Positions 9,903-35,822 of a stretch of 64,000 nt of DNA are shown here, piece after piece; position 1 is the stretch's first letter, and the number at the start of each line of letters is the position of its first letter. Under the pieces are notes generated by a model, which was not told the DNA's origin, searched no databases, and saw only the letters and a list, made by a program, of their open reading frames with translations. This DNA comes from Paracoccus subflavus (GTDB lineage Bacteria; Pseudomonadota; Alphaproteobacteria; Rhodobacterales; Rhodobacteraceae): NCBI RefSeq assembly GCF_004310345.1, contig NZ_SISK01000004.1, positions 62,001-126,000 of the forward strand, read 5' to 3'. The translations under genes and the position numbers were made by a program.

Positions 9903-10834
9903 TCGACCACCGCCCGAACCGCCCCTCTCTGCCCGAGCGGATCAAGCGCGATCCGGCCCCCACGCGACTGCAATACCGGCTGGAACGCATGTGGCTGCGG
10001 CCGATCTGGCGGCAGGCCGTGCGGGTGGGCGTGCCGTCCTTTCTGATCGCCCTGACCGCCGGGCTTTGGCTGGCCGACGAGGATCGCCGCGCAACGCTGA
10101 CCGGCGGCGTCCGGCAGGTGATGGACAAGGTGCAAAGCCGCGAGGAGTTTCTGGTTCGCACCATGACGGTCGAGGGCGCCTCTCCGGTCGTGGACAAGGC
10201 GCTGCGGGCGATGCTGCCGGTGGAGTTGCCGGCCTCCAGCTTTGACATCGACCTGACGGCCTTGCGGTTGCAGGTGATGCAGCTTGACGTGATCGAATCC
10301 ATCGACCTGCGCATCAAACCGGGCGGCATCCTGTCGGCGGTGGTCAAGGAACGCGAGCCCGCGATCCTGTGGCGCCATGCGCGCGGCATCGACATTCTTG
10401 ACCGGTCTGGCCACCGCGTCGCATCGGTCACGGCACGCGACGTGCGCGCGGATCTGCCGCTGATCGCGGGCGACGGGGCCGACCTGGCCGTCACCGAGGC
10501 CCTGGCCCTGATTGATGCCGCCGGGCCGATCCTGCCCCGCGTGCGCGGACTGGTCCGCCGGGGGGAACGCCGCTGGGATCTGGAACTGGATCACGGGCAG
10601 CGGATCATGCTGCCGGCGGACGGCGCCGTGATCGCCCTGCAGGCGGCGATGGCGCTGGAACGGTCGCAGGACATGCTGGGCCGCGACATCGTGGCGGTGG
10701 ATTTGCGCAATCCGTCCCGCCCGGTGCTGCGGTTGGGGATCGAAGCGCGCAACACGCTGCGTCAGGCGCGGGGCCAGCCGCTGCTGGGACCGGACGGCAG
10801 GATCATTCAGGACGAAGAAAAGACGGAGGGTTGA
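9890..10834 (+). CDS. ftsQ: Cell division protein FtsQ
   Basis: Bitopic divisome protein with a short cytoplasmic head, one membrane segment (about residues 38-54) and a periplasmic POTRA domain that binds FtsB/FtsL. About 314 residues. The body fits alphaproteobacterial Fts[17 protein letters not shown] opens the POTRA domain, and [30 protein letters not shown] follows in separate strands. The GTG at 9890 was chosen because GAGGA lies 7 bases before it; another GTG at 9869 in the same frame is possible and would add 7 residues. It overlaps ddl by 13 bases and ends 3 bases before ftsA. Confidence 0.9.
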
Positions 10835-10837
10835 GGG

Positions 10838-12175
10838 ATGGCGGAACTGTACCAGACGCAGCGCGCGATGCGGAACATCCGCCGCGCCGCCCTGCAACGC
10901 GGCGTGATCGGCATCCTCGACATCGGCACCTCCAAGATCGCCTGTCTGGTGCTGCGTTTCGACGGGACGGGCACCTTTCGGGAAACGGACGGCGTCGGCC
11001 CCATGGCGGGACAGGCGAATTTCCGGGTGATCGGCGCGGCCTCGACACGCTCTCGCGGGATGCGCCGGGGCGAGATCGAGGTGATGGCCGAAACCGAACG
11101 GGCAATCCGCACGGTCGTGGCCGCGGCGCAAAAGATTGCCGGCGTGCGGGTCGATCACGTCATCGCCTGCCTGTCGGGGGGCCGTCCCGCATCCTATGGC
11201 CTGGCCGGGGACATCACGTTGGAGGCGGGGCGGGTTCACGATCACGATGTGGCGCGCGTTCTGGCAGCCTGCGACGCGCCCGATTTCGGCCGGGGACGCG
11301 AGGTGCTGCACGCCCAGCCGGTGAACTTTGCCGTGGACAACCGCAGCAGCCTGGGCGATCCGCGCGACCATGTCGGCAACAGGCTGTCCTGCGACATGCA
11401 TGTGCTGACGGTGGACGGCGACGTGATCGGCAATCTGATCCAGTGCATCCGCCGCTGCGACCTGGAACTGGCCGGGATCGCCTCGGCCGCCTATGCCTCG
11501 GCCCGTGCCTCGCTGGTCGAGGACGAACAGGAACTGGGTGCGGCCTGCATCGACCTGGGCGGCGGTGGAACGGGCGTGTCGATCTTTGTCAAGAAGCACA
11601 TGATCTTTGCCGACGCCGTGCGGATCGGCGGGCACCTGATCACGCAGGACATCGCGCAGGGACTGCGGGTGCCGCTGCCGGTGGCCGAGCGGCTGAAGAC
11701 GCTCAGCGGCGGGGTCGAGGCCACCGGGCGCGACGATCGCGAGATGCTGGATCTGGGCGGCGCCGAGGCGTCCGGCTGGGACGGAGAACGCCGCTCTGTA
11801 AGCCGCGCGGACCTGATCGGGATTATGCGGCCAAGGGTCGAGGAAATTCTAGAGAATGCCCGTCAAGTTCTTGATGCGGCAGGGTTTGACCAGATGCCCA
11901 GTCAACAGATCGTGTTAACGGGTGGGGGCAGCCAGATCCCCGGCCTGGATGGTCTGGCTGCGCGCATCCTAGGGCCGACAATCCGCTGCGGCCGACCCCT
12001 GCGGATCGACGGGCTGGCCCACCAGTTCACCGATCCGGGCTTTGCCAGCGCGGTGGGTTTAGCGCTGTTCGCGGCACATCCCCAGGATGAATGGTGGGAC
12101 TTCGAAATGCCCGCCGACAGTTATCCGACCCGCAGCCTGCGACGCGCGTATCGGTGGTTCAGGAACAACTGGTGA
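10838..12175 (+). CDS. ftsA: Cell division protein FtsA
   Basis: Actin-like ATPase that tethers FtsZ filaments to the membrane and recruits the divisome. 445 residues. Phosphate-1 loop GILDIGTSKIACLV near residue 25, SHS2-type 1C domain around 90-190, IDLGGGGTGVSIFV as the phosphate-2 loop, and TGGGSQIPGLDGLAARILG as the adenosine motif. The C-terminal RSLRRAYRWFRNNW is a basic aromatic amphipathic stretch fitting the membrane-targeting helix. A GGAGGG followed by GAGGG sits just before the ATG. The next gene, ftsZ, is 213 bases away. Confidence 0.96.
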   Translation: MAELYQTQRAMRNIRRAALQRGVIGILDIGTSKIACLVLRFDGTGTFRETDGVGPMAGQANFRVIGAASTRSRGMRRGEIEVMAETERAIRTVVAAAQKIAGVRVDHVIACLSGGRPASYGLAGDITLEAGRVHDHDVARVLAACDAPDFGRGREVLHAQPVNFAVDNRSSLGDPRDHVGNRLSCDMHVLTVDGDVIGNLIQCIRRCDLELAGIASAAYASARASLVEDEQELGAACIDLGGGGTGVSIFVKKHMIFADAVRIGGHLITQDIAQGLRVPLPVAERLKTLSGGVEATGRDDREMLDLGGAEASGWDGERRSVSRADLIGIMRPRVEEILENARQVLDAAGFDQMPSQQIVLTGGGSQIPGLDGLAARILGPTIRCGRPLRIDGLAHQFTDPGFASAVGLALFAAHPQDEWWDFEMPADSYPTRSLRRAYRWFRNNW

Positions 12176-27166: not shown

Positions 27167-30060
27167 CAGGATGCCTCTTTCCGAAGGTCCGCCGCGTCCT
27201 CCAGATCCTGTTCGCGAATCCGGCCGGCGCGCAGCGACTGGTGCGCCACCGCGACCAGCATCAGCACCACCGCGCCCACCACCGTCGCAAAGACGCCGAT
27301 GTCGAACAGCAGGGCGGTAGCGGCCGGAACCTCTCCGATCAGGGGGATGTCGATGTATCGGGCGTGGGCCGTCAGGAAAGGATAGCCAAAGACCCAGGCC
27401 CCCATGCCCACCGCCACAGCGCCAAGCAGGCCGAACCCCATCCAGCGGATCGGCAGAACGGTGATGCGCGATTCCACCCAGCGGACATTCGTGCCGATAT
27501 ACTGGATCAGAAAGGCGATGGCCAATGTCACCCCCGCTGCGAATCCGCCGCCCGGAAGGTCGTGGCCGCGAAAGAAGAAATAAGCCGACACCACGATCAG
27601 CAGCGGGAACATCCAGATCATGATGACGGACGGCACGTGCAGATAATCGTCCAGCGACGGGCTGTCGACGCGCATCTGCTGATAGGGCGGGGCGATGCTT
27701 TCGGGGGCGGGGCGGAACCGGCGCAGCAGCGCATAGACCGTCAGCCCGACGATGGCCAGAACGGCGATCTCGCCAAAGGTATCGAAGGCGCGGAAATCCA
27801 CGAGGATCACGTTGACGGTGTTCGTGCCCCCGCCTTCGTAATAGGCGTTGCCCAGAAACCAGTCGCCCACGTTGCTGATCAGGGGCCGCGTCATGACTGC
27901 AAAGGCCACGGCCGCCATGCCAAGCCCGCCGATGGCGGCAATCACAAGGTCCCGGCCTCGGCGGACCTTGGCGGGCAAAAGGGTATCCTCGACGATCTCG
28001 GACCGGCGCTTGGGCAACCAGCGCAGGCCCAGCAGCAGCAGAACCGTCGTCACCACCTCGACCAGAAGCTGCGTCACTGCAAGATCGGGCGACGAGAACC
28101 AGGCATAGGTCAGGCAGGTCACGGCCCCCGCCCCGCCCAGAAGCACAAGCGCGGCAAAGCGGTGATACTTGGCCTGCCAGGCCGCGCCGATGGCGCACAG
28201 CCCGCCCACCACCCACAAGAGGCCAAAGGCCAGGTTGGGCGCGTGCAGGCGAAGGTCGGGGGCAAAGCTCAGCACCCCCCATAGCGATGCCATGGCCGCG
28301 CCGATGGCCGCCAGAACCAGCAGGCGCATCTGCGGCTGAAGCGATTCGGTGGCCAGCCAGCGCAGCGCCAGCCGCGGCAGGCGCCAGGTCAGGCGGAACA
28401 GGATCGTTTCATAGACGCGCTGCCCGCGAATGCGGTGGATCAGGGGCGGACCCTCTGGCCCGCGGGCGATGGCCCCGGCGCCCAAGGCATAGATCAGGGC
28501 GCCTGTGCCAAGCGCGATCACCGACAGCATCAGGGGTGCATTGACCCCATGCCAGATTGCGATCGTGTAATAGGGCATGTCGGCGCCAACCACCGACCGC
28601 GCGGCGCTGTTGATGACCGGCCCCAGCGTCAGGGCCGGAAACATGCCCACCAGCAGGCAGATAAAGACCAGCAGTTCCACCGGACGGCGCATCCAGGCGG
28701 CCGGCTCGTGCGGGGTTTTGGGCAGAGACGTGGATCGGGGACCAAAGAAGACGGTGGCAATGAAGCGCAGCGAATAGGCAACCGACAGGGCGCTGGCCGT
28801 CACCGCAAGATAGGGCAGGGCATTGTCCAGCCAGGTGCCGTTGTGCCAGTCCACCGATTCGGCCAGAAACATTTCCTTGGACAGGAACCCGTTCAGCAGC
28901 GGCACCCCCGCCATGGCCGCCGCCGCGACGATGGCCAGCGTGGCGGTGAAGGGCATGGGCCGGAACAGCCCGCCCAGGCGCCGCATGTCCCGCGTGCCGG
29001 TTTCGTGGTCCACGATCCCTGCGGCCATGAACAGCGATGCCTTGAAGACCGCGTGGTTGCAGATGTGAAAGATCGCCGCCAGGATCGCGCCGGGACTGCC
29101 CAGACCCGCCAGGGTCACGATCAGGCCCAGATGGCTGATGGTGGAATAAGCTAGCAGCCCTTTCAGATCGTGGCGATAAAGCGCAATCACCGCGCCCAGC
29201 AGCAGCGTGACCACGCCCGCCCCGGTGACGGCAAAGAACCACGCCTCGGTTCCGCCCAGCACCGGACTGAAGCGGATCAGCAGGAACACCCCTGCCTTGA
29301 CCATGGTGGCGGAATGTAGGAAGGCCGACACCGGCGTCGGTGCGGCCATGGCGCCGGGCAGCCAGAAATGGAACGGGAACTGCGCCGACTTGGTAAAGGC
29401 CGCCAGCAGGAACAGCGTCAGGATCGGGCCATACAGCGGGTGGCCGCGCACCGCGTCGCCCGACCGCAGGATCGTGCCCAGGTCATGGCTGCCCGCGGCA
29501 TAGCCCAGCATCAGCATCGCGACCAGCAGGCACAGCCCGCCCAAGGCAGTCACGGTCAGCGCGGTCCGCGCCCCGTCGCGCGCCGCCGCGCCGCCATGCC
29601 AGAACCCGATCAGCAGGAACGACATGATCGAGGTCATTTCCCAGAACACGACCATGACCAGCACGTTGCCCGACAGCAGGATCCCCTGCATCGCGCCGGT
29701 GAAGGCCATCATCAGCGCCAGGAACCGGGGCAGCGAATCCGAGTGCGCCATGTAATAGTGGGCATAGATCACCACCAGCACGCCGATTGACAGGACCAGC
29801 GCAGCGAACAGCCAGGCAAATCCGTCCAGCCGCAGCGCAAGGTCCAGGCCAACCGACGGCACCCAGTCAAGCCGTGCATCCAGAACCTCGCCCGACTGGA
29901 TGGCGGACAGGAATCCCGCCAGAACGCCAAGGCCCGCGATCAGCGATACGACCGAAAACGCCGTGGCGGTGCGGCGCGCGTCATGGGCCAGGGTGGACAG
30001 GATCAGCGCGGTCGCAAAGGGCAGGAAAGCCAGCACCAGGAACAGATTGTGTTCGGCCAT
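27166..30060 (-). CDS. phaAB: Fused cation/proton antiporter subunit A+B (PhaAB)
   Basis: 964 residues. Residues 1 to about 780 are MrpA: a NuoL-like core (FWEMTSIMSFLLIGFWHGG, FTKSAQFPFHFWLPGAMAAPTPVSAFLHSATMVKAG) followed by the NuoJ/L-like C-terminal part. The final 170 residues, from about 800 on, are MrpB: FRGHDLPGGGFAAGVTLAIAFLIQYIG. This A-B fusion is the pattern of the Sinorhizobium pha (K+/H+, pH adaptation) antiporter and other group 2 Mrp systems, in contrast to the separate A and B of Staphylococcus and Bacillus. ATG 30060 begins the usual short head before the first helix. First gene of a six-gene operon with overlapping reading frames. Confidence 0.94.
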   Translation of the reverse strand: MAEHNLFLVLAFLPFATALILSTLAHDARRTATAFSVVSLIAGLGVLAGFLSAIQSGEVLDARLDWVPSVGLDLALRLDGFAWLFAALVLSIGVLVVIYAHYYMAHSDSLPRFLALMMAFTGAMQGILLSGNVLVMVVFWEMTSIMSFLLIGFWHGGAAARDGARTALTVTALGGLCLLVAMLMLGYAAGSHDLGTILRSGDAVRGHPLYGPILTLFLLAAFTKSAQFPFHFWLPGAMAAPTPVSAFLHSATMVKAGVFLLIRFSPVLGGTEAWFFAVTGAGVVTLLLGAVIALYRHDLKGLLAYSTISHLGLIVTLAGLGSPGAILAAIFHICNHAVFKASLFMAAGIVDHETGTRDMRRLGGLFRPMPFTATLAIVAAAAMAGVPLLNGFLSKEMFLAESVDWHNGTWLDNALPYLAVTASALSVAYSLRFIATVFFGPRSTSLPKTPHEPAAWMRRPVELLVFICLLVGMFPALTLGPVINSAARSVVGADMPYYTIAIWHGVNAPLMLSVIALGTGALIYALGAGAIARGPEGPPLIHRIRGQRVYETILFRLTWRLPRLALRWLATESLQPQMRLLVLAAIGAAMASLWGVLSFAPDLRLHAPNLAFGLLWVVGGLCAIGAAWQAKYHRFAALVLLGGAGAVTCLTYAWFSSPDLAVTQLLVEVVTTVLLLLGLRWLPKRRSEIVEDTLLPAKVRRGRDLVIAAIGGLGMAAVAFAVMTRPLISNVGDWFLGNAYYEGGGTNTVNVILVDFRAFDTFGEIAVLAIVGLTVYALLRRFRPAPESIAPPYQQMRVDSPSLDDYLHVPSVIMIWMFPLLIVVSAYFFFRGHDLPGGGFAAGVTLAIAFLIQYIGTNVRWVESRITVLPIRWMGFGLLGAVAVGMGAWVFGYPFLTAHARYIDIPLIGEVPAATALLFDIGVFATVVGAVVLMLVAVAHQSLRAGRIREQDLEDAADLRKEAS

Positions 30061-30121
30061 GCGTGCCCCGCCCTTTCCCAAGCTGCTGCGCCCTGTGTCC
30101 CGAACATGCCTGTGCCGGGCC

Positions 30122-30180
30122 TTGTTTCGCAAACAACCGGAAACAGGTAGGACCAGCCATTCGGGAGCCTTACCCGAATG
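30122..30180. promoter_or_regulatory. Two inverted repeats upstream of the antiporter operon
   Basis: TTGTTT-CGC-AAACAA (30122-30136) is a short dyad about 62 bases before the phaAB start; CATTCGGG-N7-CCCGAATG (30158-30180) is a perfect 8-bp inverted repeat. They lie in the 210-base gap between phaAB and the end of the reductase gene. Neither is followed by a T-run, so operators or RNA structure fit better than an intrinsic terminator. The remainder of the gap shows nothing I can name. Confidence 0.4.
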
Positions 30181-30270
30181 CCTTTCGCCCTGTCCGAGTT
30201 CAAGGCCGCATCGCCGGAAAAGGCCCGGTCCGGCCCCAACTTTCCCGTTATCGGATTGAACGGCGGATCG

Positions 30271-31347
30271 TCAGACCTCGACCTCGATGCGTCCCATGGG
30301 GTGCGAACAGCAGGCCAGGATATAACCCTCGGCGATGTCCTCGTCGCTGATGCCGCCGTTGTGGACCATGTGCACCTCGCCCGAGACCTTTCTGATCTTG
30401 CAGGTGCCGCACAGGCCAAAGGTGCAGCCGGACGGGATGTTCAGCCCCGACCGTTTCGCCACCGCCAGCACGGTGTCGGTTTCTGCGCAGGGGGCGGTGA
30501 CGCCGCTGCCGGCAAAGACGATCTGCGCCCTGGCGCCCTCCTCGGGGGCGATATCGTCGATGACGGGGGCATCGGCCTCGGTCTTGATGGGGGCGCCGAA
30601 GCTTTCCTGATGGTAATGGTCCATGTCATAGCCCAGCGACACCAGCATGTCGCGCACCGACTGCATGAACGGTTCCGGCCCGCAGCAGAACACCTCGCGC
30701 TCCAGGTAATCGGGGGCCATCAGACCCAGCATGATCTGGTTCAGCCGTCCCAGATAGCCGGTCCAGGCGGTGAAGGGGTCGTTTTCCTCGACCGTGAATC
30801 GCAGTTGCAGGCCGGGCACCCGGTCGGCGAACTGTTCCAGCCTGCGCCGGAAGATGATCTCGGACGGCGCGCGGGCGGCGTGCACGAACACGATGTCCGG
30901 CATCTCGCCCGAATCCCAGGCCCAGGTGGTCATCGACATCATCGGCGTGACACCGGACCCGGCCGAGATGAACAGATGCTTTTTGGCGGGATGGCGGTGG
31001 CTGGAAAAGATCCCGGACGGGCCATAGGCCTTGATCCGCATTCCCGGACGCAAATGGTCCAGCATCCAGCGGGTCGCCAGCGACGTGCGCTGCGCCTTGA
31101 CCGTGACCGAGATCGACAGCGGCCGCGACGGGCTGGAACTGATCGTATAGGTGCGCTGGACATTGCCGCCCGGCAGCGGCAGGTCCAGCGTGACGAACTG
31201 TCCCGGCTGGTAATCGAACCACGCCCCCGACGGCGCCCGGAAGGTGAAGGTGGCGGCGTCCGCGGTTTCGGGAACCACCATCGCGCATTCCAGCGGTTCG
31301 TCGTCGGACCACGGCTCGGCGGTCCAGTTCAGGCGTGGCTTCGTCAT
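30271..31347 (-). CDS. gbcB: Ferredoxin-NAD(P) reductase component of the Rieske oxygenase (GbcB-like)
   Basis: 358-residue electron donor: FAD domain (RTYTISSSPSRPLSI), NAD domain (FISAGSGVTPMMSM, CCGPEPFM) and a C-terminal plant-type 2Fe-2S domain with CTFGLCGTC and a final CC (LACCSHPMG). This domain order matches the reductase partners of glycine-betaine and carnitine oxygenases. The start is 8 bases after the oxygenase stop codon, so the pair is an operon. ATG 31347 opens the usual length; an in-frame GTG 12 bases earlier would overlap the oxygenase. Confidence 0.87.
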   Translation of the reverse strand: MTKPRLNWTAEPWSDDEPLECAMVVPETADAATFTFRAPSGAWFDYQPGQFVTLDLPLPGGNVQRTYTISSSPSRPLSISVTVKAQRTSLATRWMLDHLRPGMRIKAYGPSGIFSSHRHPAKKHLFISAGSGVTPMMSMTTWAWDSGEMPDIVFVHAARAPSEIIFRRRLEQFADRVPGLQLRFTVEENDPFTAWTGYLGRLNQIMLGLMAPDYLEREVFCCGPEPFMQSVRDMLVSLGYDMDHYHQESFGAPIKTEADAPVIDDIAPEEGARAQIVFAGSGVTAPCAETDTVLAVAKRSGLNIPSGCTFGLCGTCKIRKVSGEVHMVHNGGISDEDIAEGYILACCSHPMGRIEVEV

Positions 31348-31355
31348 TGGCCCCG

Positions 31356-32588
31356 TTACTCCGCCGCGACGCTTGTCGGGGTCAGCCGGCGGGCCATCAG
31401 GCCGCAATACCAGTCGATCAGATGGATCACCCCGGCCTCGTGCGCGGGCGAATAGGGGCCGGGCTGATAGGCCGGCGACAGGATGCCCTTCTGGTTTTCC
31501 TCGACCACCCGGCGATCCTCGTCGTTGGTGTTCAGCCACACCTCGGTCAGGGACTTGAGGTCGTAATCCTTGCCCTCAACCGCGTCCTTGTGGACCAGCC
31601 ACTTGGTCGTGACCTCGGTTTCGGTTGGGCTGATCGGCAGGATGCGGAAGACGATGGCGTGGTCTGGCAGGAAGTGGTTCCAGGACGACGGGAAGTGATA
31701 GAACATCAGGCTGCCCGCGTCATTCCACGGGATCGAGCCCATGCGCTGCGAGACCGCCGCCTTGCCCGACATGGTGAAGCTTTCCTGATTGTCCATCAGC
31801 GGCACGCGGGCCATGCGCCATTGCATGTCGGGCGTGTTCACGAAGCGTGCCGGCAGATTGGCGGCGTCGCAGCGCGCCCAGTGGTCCAGAATCTCGGGGC
31901 TGGCCGAGTTCGGCCCCTCCATCACCGTCATCAGCGGATCGTCCGAATAGGTGCGGCACAGCGAGGGGTGCGAGCCGCTGCAGTGATAGCATTCGCGGTT
32001 GTTTTCCATCACCAGCTTCCAGTTGCCCTTCTCGACGATGGTCGAGGAAAAGGCCACCTTGCTGTCGGCCAGTCCCGACGGCAGGACATAGCGCGTCAGG
32101 TTCGCGGCCAGATCGTTGATGGCGGGCGGGATCTGCGCCAGGCAGATAAAGACCATCCCGCCCAGATCGACGCAGTGGACAGTCTTCAGCCCGTATTTGC
32201 TGGCGTCGAACCCGTCGCCCATGTCGCGCGCATACAGCAGCTTGCCGTCCAGGTCGTAGGTCCACTGGTGATAGGGGCAGACCAGCCTGGGATTGGACCC
32301 GTTGGTCTTGGCGCACAGCCGCTGGCCGCGATGGCGGCAGACATTGTGGAACGCCCGCACCCGCCCGTCGCCGCCGCGCACCACGATCACGGGATAGGCG
32401 CCGACGTTCAGCGTCACGAAATTGCCGGTCTTGGGAATCTCGCATGAGGGCAGGGCGAAAAGCCATTCGCGATACCAGATCTGTTCCAGGTCGTCCTGGA
32501 ATGCCTGCTGCCCGCAATACAACTCGCGGGGCAGGGAAAAGCCGGGGATGCGTTCTGCGATCAGGCTGGCGGTCGAGAGGGTGTTCAT
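31356..32588 (-). CDS. gbcA: Rieske oxygenase alpha subunit, glycine-betaine demethylase type (GbcA-like)
   Basis: 410 residues. Rieske 2Fe-2S ligands C84, H86, C104 and H107 (CRH and CPYH, 17 residues between the pairs). Mononuclear iron ligands H202 and H207 in ECYHCSGSH. The residue bridging the two metal centres is glutamate E199 where many ring hydroxylases have aspartate, which is the pattern of oxygenases acting on quaternary amines. I assign glycine-betaine monooxygenase, giving dimethylglycine and formaldehyde; stachydrine or carnitine oxygenase are alternatives. ATG 32588 chosen; a second in-frame ATG 12 bases upstream is possible. A palindromic site overlaps its predicted -10 element. 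Confidence 0.82.
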   Translation of the reverse strand: MNTLSTASLIAERIPGFSLPRELYCGQQAFQDDLEQIWYREWLFALPSCEIPKTGNFVTLNVGAYPVIVVRGGDGRVRAFHNVCRHRGQRLCAKTNGSNPRLVCPYHQWTYDLDGKLLYARDMGDGFDASKYGLKTVHCVDLGGMVFICLAQIPPAINDLAANLTRYVLPSGLADSKVAFSSTIVEKGNWKLVMENNRECYHCSGSHPSLCRTYSDDPLMTVMEGPNSASPEILDHWARCDAANLPARFVNTPDMQWRMARVPLMDNQESFTMSGKAAVSQRMGSIPWNDAGSLMFYHFPSSWNHFLPDHAIVFRILPISPTETEVTTKWLVHKDAVEGKDYDLKSLTEVWLNTNDEDRRVVEENQKGILSPAYQPGPYSPAHEAGVIHLIDWYCGLMARRLTPTSVAAE

Positions 32589-32624
32589 GTCTGGACCCAT
32601 GGAGGTGCTGGCTGCTATGCCCGC

Positions 32625-32666
32625 AGAATAGCGACAGCCGGTCGCGATTGTGGCCGAATTGCGACA
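32625..32666 (-). promoter_or_regulatory. Operator with three half-sites in front of gbcA
   Basis: On the plus strand GAATAGCGACA (32626-32636) and GAATTGCGACA (32656-32666) are direct repeats 30 bases apart, and GTCGCGATT (32641-32649) is the inverse of the first, forming AATAGCGAC-N5-GTCGCGATT. The minus-strand -10-like TATTCT (32630-32625) lies in the first half-site; no good -35 exists, as expected for an activator-dependent promoter. Confidence 0.5.
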
Positions 32667-32731
32667 TCGCGCGGCGCGAAAAAGACATGCCGCCTTGCGG
32701 GATCGTCCGTCGGATCTGCCGTGGCAAAAAG

Positions 32732-32740
32732 TTTTCCACA
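32732..32740 (+). promoter_or_regulatory. DnaA-box-like 9-mer
   Basis: TTTTCCACA fits the relaxed DnaA box TTWTNCACA and lies 63 bases upstream of the first NrdR box. DnaA control of nrd genes is known in E. coli; a single relaxed match is weak evidence. Confidence 0.25.
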
Positions 32741-32794
32741 GCAAATTTGCTTCTTGCTCTGGAAATGTGACACATGCTCTGGAACCAGTCTGCC

Positions 32795-32841
32795 GATCCA
32801 TATATTGTTGCTGTGGTCGCGCCGCTGACCAGATAATGTGA
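32795..32841 (+). promoter_or_regulatory. nrd promoter with two NrdR-type boxes
   Basis: Box 1 (32795-32810) has core CCATATATTGTT and box 2 (32826-32841) core CCAGATAATGTG, against the NrdR consensus ACACWATATATWGTGT. Their starts are exactly 31 bases apart, the three-turn spacing known for NrdR pairs. Between and over them lie TTGCTG (32808-32813) and GATAAT (32832-32837) with an 18-base spacer, so bound repressor would cover the promoter. Confidence 0.7.
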
Positions 32842-33071
32842 ATGAACAGCTTGTGGTTGTTCTGCAACAACGGAAAAGAGCGTGTGATCCTTCGGGTTCC
32901 AAGCCGTTTGCAAGCCCCTGGCTGGCGCGGCAATCTGACCCGGACCGCAAAGGGCCGAAGCGGCCGTGACATCGAAAACGACACCGGCCAGCGGGTCCGG
33001 GACACCAGGCTTGCGATGATCGCGGGCCCGATCCCTGACGCATGCCGCCCGGCAACAATGAGGAGCAGGAC
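32842..33071 (+). other. Leader of the nrdHIEF transcript, with an open frame of 77 codons
   Basis: About 230 bases between the predicted nrd transcription start and nrdH. An ATG at 32842, at or next to the predicted start site, opens a frame that runs the whole leader and stops in an ATGA overlap with nrdH. The peptide is Arg-rich, with no recognisable domain and third-position GC of about 74 percent, lower than that usual for the real genes here. No cobalamin riboswitch core was seen. Together with the 250 bases before it this completes the 483-base gbcA-nrdH gap. Confidence 0.3.
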
Positions 33072-33293
33072 ATGACCATCATCGTGTATTCCAAACCCGC
33101 CTGCGTGCAGTGCACCGCCACGACCCGCGCCCTTGATGCGCGCGGCCTGTCCTATGATGTGATCGACCTGACCGAGGACGATCAGGCGATGGAACGGGTG
33201 ACGGCGCTGGGCTATCGCCAGGCCCCTGTGGTCATCGCGGGGGACGCGCATTGGGCAGGGTTCCGGCCCGACATGATCGGCCAGTTGGCCTGA
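33072..33293 (+). CDS. nrdH: NrdH, glutaredoxin-like electron donor
   Basis: 73-residue thioredoxin-fold redoxin that reduces class Ib ribonucleotide reductase. Active site CVQC at residues 11-14, as in the C-V/M-Q-C signature of NrdH, and WAGFRPDMI near the C terminus, the conserved loop of the family. AGGAG lies 7 bases before the ATG. First gene of nrdHIEF; 7 bases separate it from nrdI. Confidence 0.95.
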   Translation: MTIIVYSKPACVQCTATTRALDARGLSYDVIDLTEDDQAMERVTALGYRQAPVVIAGDAHWAGFRPDMIGQLA

Positions 33294-33300
33294 CCGGCGC

Positions 33301-33714
33301 ATGGCGGGTGTGGTCTTCTTCTCCTCGGCCTCGGGCAACACCGCGCGGTTTGTCGCGCGTCTTGGCCTGCCCGCGCTGCGGATTCCGATCCGGCCTGCCG
33401 AACCGATGCCGGCCATCGAGGCGCCTTTCGTGCTGATCTGCCCGACCTATTCGGACGGGCAGGGGCGGGGCGCGGTGCCAAAGCAGGTGATCCGGTTCCT
33501 GAACGATCCCCGCCGACGCGACCTGCTGCAAGGTGTGATCGGCGCGGGCAACCGCAATTTCGGCGCGACCTTTGCGCTGTCGGCCCGTGTCATCGCCGAC
33601 AAATGCACTGTGCCTGTCCTGTGGCGATTCGAACTGGCGGGGACCGACACCGATATTCAAAAGGTCCGTGCGGGCCTGCAACACTTCCGGGGGATGGAAT
33701 GCTTGACGGTTTGA
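33301..33714 (+). CDS. nrdI: NrdI, flavodoxin-like activator of class Ib RNR
   Basis: Flavoprotein that supplies the oxidant for assembling the manganese-tyrosyl radical in NrdF. 137 residues. FMN loop [13 protein letters not shown] at the N end, [16 protein letters not shown] and [12 protein letters not shown] as the further flavin contacts. Its last 16 bases overlap the nrdE start in another frame, which suggests coupled translation. Presence of nrdI argues that the Mn form of the radical cofactor is used in vivo. Confidence 0.94.
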
Positions 33715-35822
33715 AACCGGAACTGGACTATCACGCGCTGAACGCGATGCTGAACCTGTATGATGCCGACGGCCGCATCCGGTTCGACGCCGACCGCATG
33801 GCCGCCCGGCAGTATTTCCTGCAGCACGTGAACCAGAACACGGTGTTCTTCCACAATCTGGACGAAAAGCTGCGCTATCTGGTGGACGAGGGCTATTACG
33901 AGCCCGAGGTGCTGGACCAGTATTCCAAGAATTTCCAGCGGGCCATCTGGGATGCCGCCTATGCCCGCAAGTTCCGGTTTCCGACTTTCCTGGGCGCGTT
34001 CAAGTATTACACCAGCTATACTCTGAAGACCCGCGACGGCCAGCGTTACCTGGAACGCTACGAGGACCGGATGGTCATGGTCGCGCTGACGCTGGCGCGG
34101 GGCGACGAGGCGCTGGCCATGCGTTTCATGGAGGAAATGCTGTCGGGCCGTTTTCAGCCCGCGACCCCCACCTTTCTGAACGCGGGCAAGAAGTCGCGGG
34201 GCGAGCTGATCTCGTGCTTCCTGCTGCGGATCGAGGACAACATGGAGTCCATCGGCCGATCCATCAATTCCGCGTTGCAACTGTCGAAACGCGGCGGCGG
34301 GGTGGCGCTGATGCTGACGAACCTGCGCGAGGCGGGCGCCCCCATCAAGGGGATCGAGAACCAGTCCTCGGGCGTGATCCCGGTCATGAAGCTGCTGGAA
34401 GACAGCTTTTCCTATGCCAACCAGTTGGGCGCGCGGCAGGGCGCCGGGGCGGTCTATCTGAACGCCCATCACCCCGACATCATGCGCTTCCTCGACACCA
34501 AGCGCGAGAATGCGGACGAGAAGATCCGCATCAAGACGCTGAGCCTGGGCGTGGTGATCCCCGACATCACCTTCGAACTGGCCAAGAAGAACGCCGACAT
34601 GTATCTGTTTTCGCCCCATGACGTGCAAAAGGTTTATGGGGTGCCGTTTTCGGACATTTCGGTCACCGAGAAATACGCCGAGATGGTGGACGACAAACGC
34701 ATCAAGAAGCGCAAGATCAACGCCCGCGAATTCTTCCAGACCATCGCGGAAATCCAGTTCGAATCCGGCTATCCCTACATCATGTTCGAGGACACGGTGA
34801 ACCGCGCCAACCCGGTGCACGGGCGCATCACCATGTCGAACCTGTGCAGCGAAATCCTGCAGGTGAACGAGGCATCCGAGTTCAACGAGGATCTGAGCTA
34901 TTCCCGCCTGGGCACTGATATTTCATGCAATCTGGGTTCGCTAAACATCGCGGCGACCATGGACGGCCCGGATTTCGGCGCCACCATCGAGGCCGCGATC
35001 CGCGCGCTGACCGCCGTGTCGGAAATGTCGGCCATCGACGCCGTGCCGTCGATCCGTCGCGGCAACGACGAGGCCCATGCCGTGGGCCTGGGCCAGATGA
35101 ACCTGCACGGGTTCCTGGCGCGCGAGAGGATCCATTACGGGTCGCCCGCAGGAGTCGAGTTCACCTCGGTCTATTTCGCGGCCGTGGCGTTTCATGCGAT
35201 CCGGGCCTCGAAACTGCTGGCGCAGGAGCACGGCCAGACCTTCAAGGATTTCGAGAAATCGAAATACGCCGACGGCACCTTTTTCGACAAATACATCGAC
35301 CGGGACTGGCTGCCCACGCTGCCCGATGTCGCGCGGGTGTTCGATGGCGTGACCCTGCCCACCCGCGACGACTGGGCCGCGCTGAAGGCCGATGTGATGG
35401 CGCACGGGCTGTATAACCGCAATCTTCAGGCGGTGCCGCCGACCGGGTCGATCAGCTATATCAACAACTCGACCAGCTCGATCCACCCGATCGTCAGCAA
35501 GATCGAGATCCGCAAGGAAGGCAAGATCGGCCGGGTCTATTACCCCGCCGCCTTCATGTCGAACGAGAATCTGGAATACTATCGCGACGCCTACGAGATC
35601 GGCCCCGAGGCGATCATCGACACCTATGCCGCCGCGACCGAGCATGTGGACCAGGGCCTGTCGCTGACGCTGTTCTTCCCGGCCGAGGCGACCACCCGCG
35701 ACATCAACCGCGCCCAGATCTATGCCTGGAAGAAGGGTATCAAGACGATCTACTACATCCGCCTGCGGCAGACCGCGCTGGAGGGGACCGAGGTCCAGGG
35801 CTGCGTGTCCTGCACGTTGTAA
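33699..35822 (+). CDS. nrdE: Class Ib ribonucleotide reductase, large subunit NrdE
   Basis: Catalytic subunit that reduces ribonucleoside diphosphates. 707 residues, about the class Ib length and without the N-terminal ATP-cone of class Ia, so dATP inhibition is not expected. Key cysteines in [15 protein letters not shown] and SCNLGSLN; C-terminal redox pair CVSC (C702, C705), reduced by NrdH. Start chosen at ATG 33699, giving [19 protein letters not shown] as the class Ib opening. The start lies inside the nrdI 3' end. Confidence 0.96.

Follow-up and report, generated by a model that had tools for sequence, protein, structure and literature searches.

The gbcA promoter of Paracoccus subflavus carries several copies of a short motif with no regulator gene beside them, which raises the question of which copies form an operator and which protein would read it. 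Within the window, the 64,000-nucleotide stretch of DNA analysed here, the controlled gene gbcA occupies 31356–32588 on the minus strand; its product, the oxygenase subunit of glycine betaine monooxygenase, was named from NCBIfam GbcA and the Pfam Rieske and Ring_hydroxyl_A domains, with an NCBIfam GbcA score (511.2 bits) that lies below the cut-off of 670. The reductase subunit gene gbcB (30271–31347, minus strand), named from its position and by eye, begins 8 bases past gbcA when its start is set by eye, and the two genes are probably co-transcribed. Among the best 80 of 594 matches, the closest named GbcA proteins (92–94% identity) come from P. fontiphilus, P. lichenicola, P. aerius, P. haematequi and Paracoccus sp. 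WLY502. An nrdH-like gene, named by eye, diverges from gbcA and starts at 33072; upstream of it lie an A+T-rich stretch, CCATATATTGTT, at 32798–32809 and an inverted repeat, GAACA-N9-TGTTC, at 32844–32862, elements that might be NrdR- or LexA-type sites. No structured RNA leader reached the gathering threshold in window positions 30000–35000.

Two direct half-sites upstream of gbcA

An initial annotation had described an operator of three half-sites in this promoter, composed of a minus-strand direct repeat at 30-bp spacing with an inverted copy between. The repeat is exact: TGTCGCNATTC stands at 32666–32656 and again at 32636–32626, and because this 11-mer has 11 copies in the 3.18-Mb genome versus one for the backward pattern, an exact pair at 30-bp distance is unusual for DNA of this composition. 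The inverted copy, GGTCGCGATTG at 32640–32650 on the plus strand, is also present, but it carries two mismatches and is at chance level by itself, since the window holds 78 matches at two mismatches versus 67 expected.

Conservation was assessed in 62 gbcA promoters of Paracoccus, each from a different genome among the 101 searched and each belonging to a GbcA at least 71% identical to that of the window; Paracoccus gbcA paralogues of at most 58% identity were left out. Promoters were anchored on NGTCG[CT]WWW at −145 to −60 from the gbcA start, and a distal half-site was counted where at least 8 of 10 positions matched [TG]GTC[TC][GC]WWW[TC] exactly 20 or 21 bp upstream of the anchor. The anchored proximal half-site was present in 56/62 promoters (mean 1.1, maximum 6 in 200 sets of dinucleotide shuffles) and the distal half-site in 55/62 (mean 0.02, maximum 1 in as many sets), and a chance origin of the whole feature was ruled out by this comparison. 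GTCGG variants were seen by eye in four of the six unanchored promoters (L126, L127, L188, L202, L212 and L215), and two of the 62 promoters, L126 and L127, showed no such operator.

In the window, the proximal half-site consists of TGTCGCAATTC followed by GGCCA (32651–32666, core 32666–32656, minus strand); it has a core of the TGTCGC/GGTCGC type and is the upstream copy of the initial annotation. The distal half-site, TGTCTTTTTC (32678–32687, minus strand), is a direct repeat 21 bp upstream, in degenerate form: with the proximal-site matrix it scores 5.1, versus 10.2 for the copy at +30. Removal of 8 near-copies left 48 non-redundant rows, in which information peaked at −22 to −10 (ATGTCTGTTTCCG), at −1 to +9 (ATGTCGCAATT) and at +35 to +41 (TTAATTT, −10-like), with 0.04 to 0.44 bits in each of columns +21 to +32. 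Because the anchor fixes columns +1 to +8, independent evidence comes from the distal and −10 blocks only. The best offset of the proximal-site matrix after 0 was −21 (mean 1.8), followed by +32 (−9.2), and the composite pattern TGTCNNWWTYN{9,11}NGTCGSWWW matched the genome once, at the gbcA operator, with one match for its backward control. Judged by conservation, the upstream copy is a true and strongly conserved operator half, and its predicted true partner is TGTCTTTTTC, 21 bp upstream.

The predicted −10, TATTCT at 32625–32630 on the minus strand, begins 36 bases past the start of the proximal half-site and aligns with the conserved block at +36 to +41; as the initial annotation had noted, it falls inside the second copy of the repeat, reading from 32630 to 32625. 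A transcription start is expected near 32618, relative to which both half-sites would span approximately −69 to −32. The −35 had been called poor, and a sigma-70 consensus scan of 32560–33080 indeed returned no site.

We consider it likely that the gbcAB operator comprises the two direct half-sites 21 bp apart, bound by a GATase-1-like AraC activator that is likely the protein P0002 described below. A dimer of such an activator, which joins a DJ-1/PfpI ligand domain to an AraC helix-turn-helix (HTH), would occupy both half-sites across their spacing of 21 bp, or two helical turns; loaded with a betaine catabolite (betaine or dimethylglycine), it would cover the position where the −35 is missing and recruit RNA polymerase (class II activation), and gbcAB would be made when glycine betaine is due for demethylation. 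The data show directly which sequence elements are present, how far they are conserved, which proteins are candidates and how these co-occur with gbcA, and we infer binding, ligand, transcription start, activation and the choice among three regulators.

Operators of this kind are already known for CdhR, ArgR and GbdR, and by its sequence the Paracoccus gbcAB promoter is a further instance. The CdhR study gives half-sites of GGTCGC as direct repeats with a 15-bp spacer and terms them very similar to GbdR, SouR and ArgR sites (PMC5806209). At caiX of P. aeruginosa, the CdhR operator resembles that of Paracoccus in its direct repeats, GGTCGC and 21-bp period, but its distal half at the caiX-cdhR site is GCCGC (PMC5806209) where Paracoccus has TGTC[TC]G[TA][TA]TC; CdhR is described as acting on carnitine genes by class I activation, whereas the Paracoccus proximal half-site would sit at the −35 place and be class II. 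The ArgR ARG box of P. aeruginosa and P. alloputida, described as two tandem copies of TGTCGCN6GNAA separated by 5 bp, likewise combines the TGTCGC core with a period of 16+5 = 21 bp (PMC10963909). It serves the arginine regulon, its second repeat is generally the less conserved (PMC10963909) where in Paracoccus the distal one is, and its box ends in GNAA where that of Paracoccus ends in a KNC[CG][AG]-like sequence. In P. aeruginosa, gbcA, gbcB, dgcAB and soxBDAG require GbdR, induced by glycine betaine and dimethylglycine, and SouR (sarcosine) (PMC12093977). GbdR operators share with Paracoccus the function of the target gene and the DJ-1/PfpI plus AraC HTH subfamily, and the likeness of the GbdR sites themselves follows the CdhR paper's description of sites very similar to those of CdhR (PMC5806209). 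Conservation and likeness to published operators together support the earlier reading of an activator-like gbcA regulatory site of AraC (GbdR-like) type.

Candidate regulators and related sites in the genome

A profile search of the genome with HTH_18 (E ≤ 0.001) returned six proteins, two each on contigs C11 and C24 and one each on C18 and C23. The window lies on C20, which agrees with the initial statement that no regulator gene is near; other regulator families were looked for by eye only, in the open reading frame (ORF) list of 24–42 kb. Three proteins in the genome, none of them in the window, join DJ-1/PfpI to HTH_18, as expected if the controller is encoded elsewhere: P0002, GbdR-like (C11, ~463354–464388, plus strand); P0003, a second GbdR-like protein (C24, ~130104–131111, minus strand); and P0004, SouR-like (C24, ~128977–130107, plus strand). 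Against NCBIfam GbdR (NF052371) they score 365.5, 334.8 and 181.5 bits, respectively, none reaching the cut-off of 480; P0002 is therefore termed GbdR-like and not GbdR, a difference from the P. aeruginosa protein. Solved structures gave 34 matches to P0002, each covering one of its two domains.

Co-occurrence was scored in 41 hand-picked Paracoccus genomes, 21 gbcA-positive (including that of the window) and 20 gbcA-negative (GbcA matches absent or at best ~1e-30). P0002-type proteins (E ≤ 1e-60) were found in 21/21 gbcA-positive versus 3/20 gbcA-negative genomes (Fisher p 7.5e-9, uncorrected for relatedness), which links P0002 to betaine catabolism through its co-occurrence with gbcA in the chosen Paracoccus genomes; for P0004-type proteins (E ≤ 1e-40) the counts were 16/21 versus 7/20 (p 0.012). 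Four of the 21 gbcA-positive genomes (G054, G056, G076 and G099) have only 67–71% matches to P0002, which may be P0003-type, and two others, G038 and G046, contain one P0002-type match, lack a P0004-type match and retain both half-sites (L103 and L108). The P0002 gene itself adjoins a DAHP synthase-like ORF (by eye) and not betaine genes, and its upstream region showed one GTCGC and no repeat.

A genome search for the motif near other betaine genes had been proposed at the outset. Similar repeats precede a second sarcosine-oxidase (sox) operon and P0003; looser pair searches ran close to their controls (8 versus 4, 6 versus 6 and 7 versus 3 matches), so only sites found again in relatives were given weight. 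Of the seven matches of the last search, three fell inside ORFs and one in an intergenic position; the other three preceded the second sox operon, P0003 and an ORF that looks fumarase-like by eye. A genome-wide regulon built from these looser patterns was dropped, its matches being near control level.

The repeat before the second sox operon (C23:69516–69541, looser pair pattern) recurs in type-2 sox promoters, 9/13 of which have [TG]GTCGCAW with a second half at +20 (TGCCGCA in five, a variant in four); three more have TGACGCA followed by CGTCGCA 22 bp on, and one has none by this test. Upstream of P0003, TGTCGCAATTG is followed 22 bp on by TGCCGCAATCC (C24:131182–131209, minus strand, in L129), from ~99 bases before the P0003 start, possibly for self-control or control by P0002; 22-bp TG[CA]CGCAA ... 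TG[TC]CGCG repeats recur in four of eight close P0003 relatives (L149, L151, L152 and L153), less firmly than the sites of the second sox operon. Type-1 soxBDAG is likewise preceded by a repeat (C24:104834–104860, minus strand, in L145; relatives L224–L238 and L250), and a 22-bp direct repeat of TG[AG]CGC was found in 15/17 type-1 sox promoters, the window's genome included. P0004 stands back to back with type-1 sox in relatives (for example on G071 C1) and ~24 kb from it in the window's genome, and looks like the sarcosine regulator SouR.

The operator could be unchanged and yet be read by SouR-like P0004 or by the second GbdR-like protein, P0003, a possibility we regard as real if somewhat unlikely. 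P0004-type genes (52–65% identity) flank gbcAB-soxBDAG in other genera, in 5 of the best 80 of 594 loci (L042, L057, L066, L090 and L091), so that P0004 could be the gbcA regulator; moreover, L042, L054 and L057 carry 21-bp (N/G/T)GTCGC repeats before gbcA, in L042 and L057 with a P0004-type neighbour. However, 5/21 chosen gbcA-positive genomes are without a P0004-type match, G038 and G046 among them with the operator intact, and the type-1 sox promoters that P0004 adjoins in relatives have the different half-site TG[AG]CGC. P0003 shares the recognition-helix residues of P0002, but second P0003-like copies are absent from some gbcA-positive genomes. On a search that covered HTH_18 by profile and other families by eye, it is very improbable that the site is bound by another regulator family, such as the GntR or LysR type: GntR had been named as an option at the outset and the AraC-type assignment is itself read from sequence, but direct half-sites with a TGTCGC core at 20/21 bp are published for GATase-1-like AraC proteins, and genes for such proteins track gbcA across the chosen genomes. 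The GbdR-like P0002 on C11 appears most likely to be the gbcAB regulator.

A possible third half-site in the core promoter

The second direct copy, TGTCGCTATTC (32626–32636, minus strand), overlaps the −10 and could be an auxiliary third half-site. We think it unlikely that the two direct copies 30 bp apart and the inverted copy together make up a single operator of three half-sites, one of them covering the −10. Both exact 11-mers are there, two of the genome's 11, the +30 copy reaches 10.2 bits with the proximal-site matrix, and GTCGC[AT] is over-represented at +11 to +52 across promoters, occurring in the 48 rows 9 times versus 0.9 in mononucleotide shuffles (0/500 as high), with L104 and L112 sharing a GTCGC at +30. 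Yet NGTCGC at +29 to +31 occurs in only 3/48 non-redundant promoters (the window, L104 and L112) and an inverted GCGAC at +20 to +22 in 1/48, the window itself; the 30-bp spacing departs from the 21 bp of GATase-1-like AraC activator operators; the layout omits the conserved distal half-site, which lies outside the interval assigned to it; and the shuffle statistics ignore kinship. Of the layout first proposed, with conservation at gbcA orthologues as its own test, the upstream copy stands and the downstream and inverted copies do not.

The window's clade comprises 11 species with support 100/100 in the gbcA tree, and an exact direct GTCGC occurs in the core promoter of seven: at +22 in five (L103 and L105–L108), whereas the other two, L098 (the window) and L104, have it at +30 and lack an exact +22 copy. 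In the remaining four (L099–L102) no exact core-promoter GTCGC was found. Seven of the nine GTCGC[AT] rows belong to L098, L103–L108 and L112, the other two being L191 and L199. Inverted copies at +11 to +52 numbered 3 versus 1.1 (46/500 shuffles as high), and −120 to −22 showed no clear excess of GTCGC[AT] in the 48 rows (5 versus 2.8; 90/500 shuffles). On the gbcA tree, with unlabelled rows excluded, there are three changes per label, two of them forced by well-supported branches. Since the shuffles ignore relatedness, this evidence is only suggestive of a putative third direct half-site in the core promoter, mainly limited to the window's clade.

A speculative reading, and one we doubt, is that the clade's third direct half-site acts as a self-limiting brake, placed in most cases at +22 and formed anew over the −10, at +30, in P. 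subflavus and one relative. If so, a little regulator would fill the two upstream half-sites and activate, much or ligand-free regulator would also fill the promoter half-site and shut out polymerase, and site turnover would have produced a small natural series of brakes.

Control of betaine demethylation across lineages

The 80 named loci, the best 80 of 594, were assessed visually and stand outside the footprint count. Of the 33 loci examined with Rfam from these 80, 28 have a cobalamin riboswitch (RF00174) immediately upstream of gbcA, for example L056 (7670–7873), L045 (7670–7873), L034 (7728–7927), L024 (7746–7921) and L028 (5541–5734); the hits in L033 and L068 only just clear the threshold (31.8 and 32.0 versus 31.5 bits). 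A crude signature had flagged 28 of the 80, and Rfam detected the riboswitch in 28/28 flagged and 0/5 unflagged loci. This pattern suggests that vitamin B12 may switch off the betaine demethylase in many Rhodobacterales, perhaps favouring a B12-dependent route. In L042 (Mameliella), a locus with a P0004-type regulator, an ORF at 10428–11984 that is MttB-type (trimethylamine methyltransferase-like) by eye adjoins gbcB. Among papers that mention both the cobalamin riboswitch and glycine betaine, none concerned gbcA by its title. A search covering mainly non-subscription literature found no Paracoccus work on gbcA or glycine betaine monooxygenase and, for Paracoccus together with GbdR, one paper, by its title on a Neorhizobium genome.

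Collectively, the motif first picked out by eye pointed to the right protein family and the wrong partner half-site, and its analysis yields a predicted, genus-wide Paracoccus operator for the demethylation of glycine betaine and names three candidate regulators. The comparison suggests that lineages have exchanged one mode of control of the first demethylation step for another, with an operator in Paracoccus and a cobalamin riboswitch in other genera, and the predicted operator would extend the GbdR/SouR logic of Pseudomonas to an alphaproteobacterial genus.
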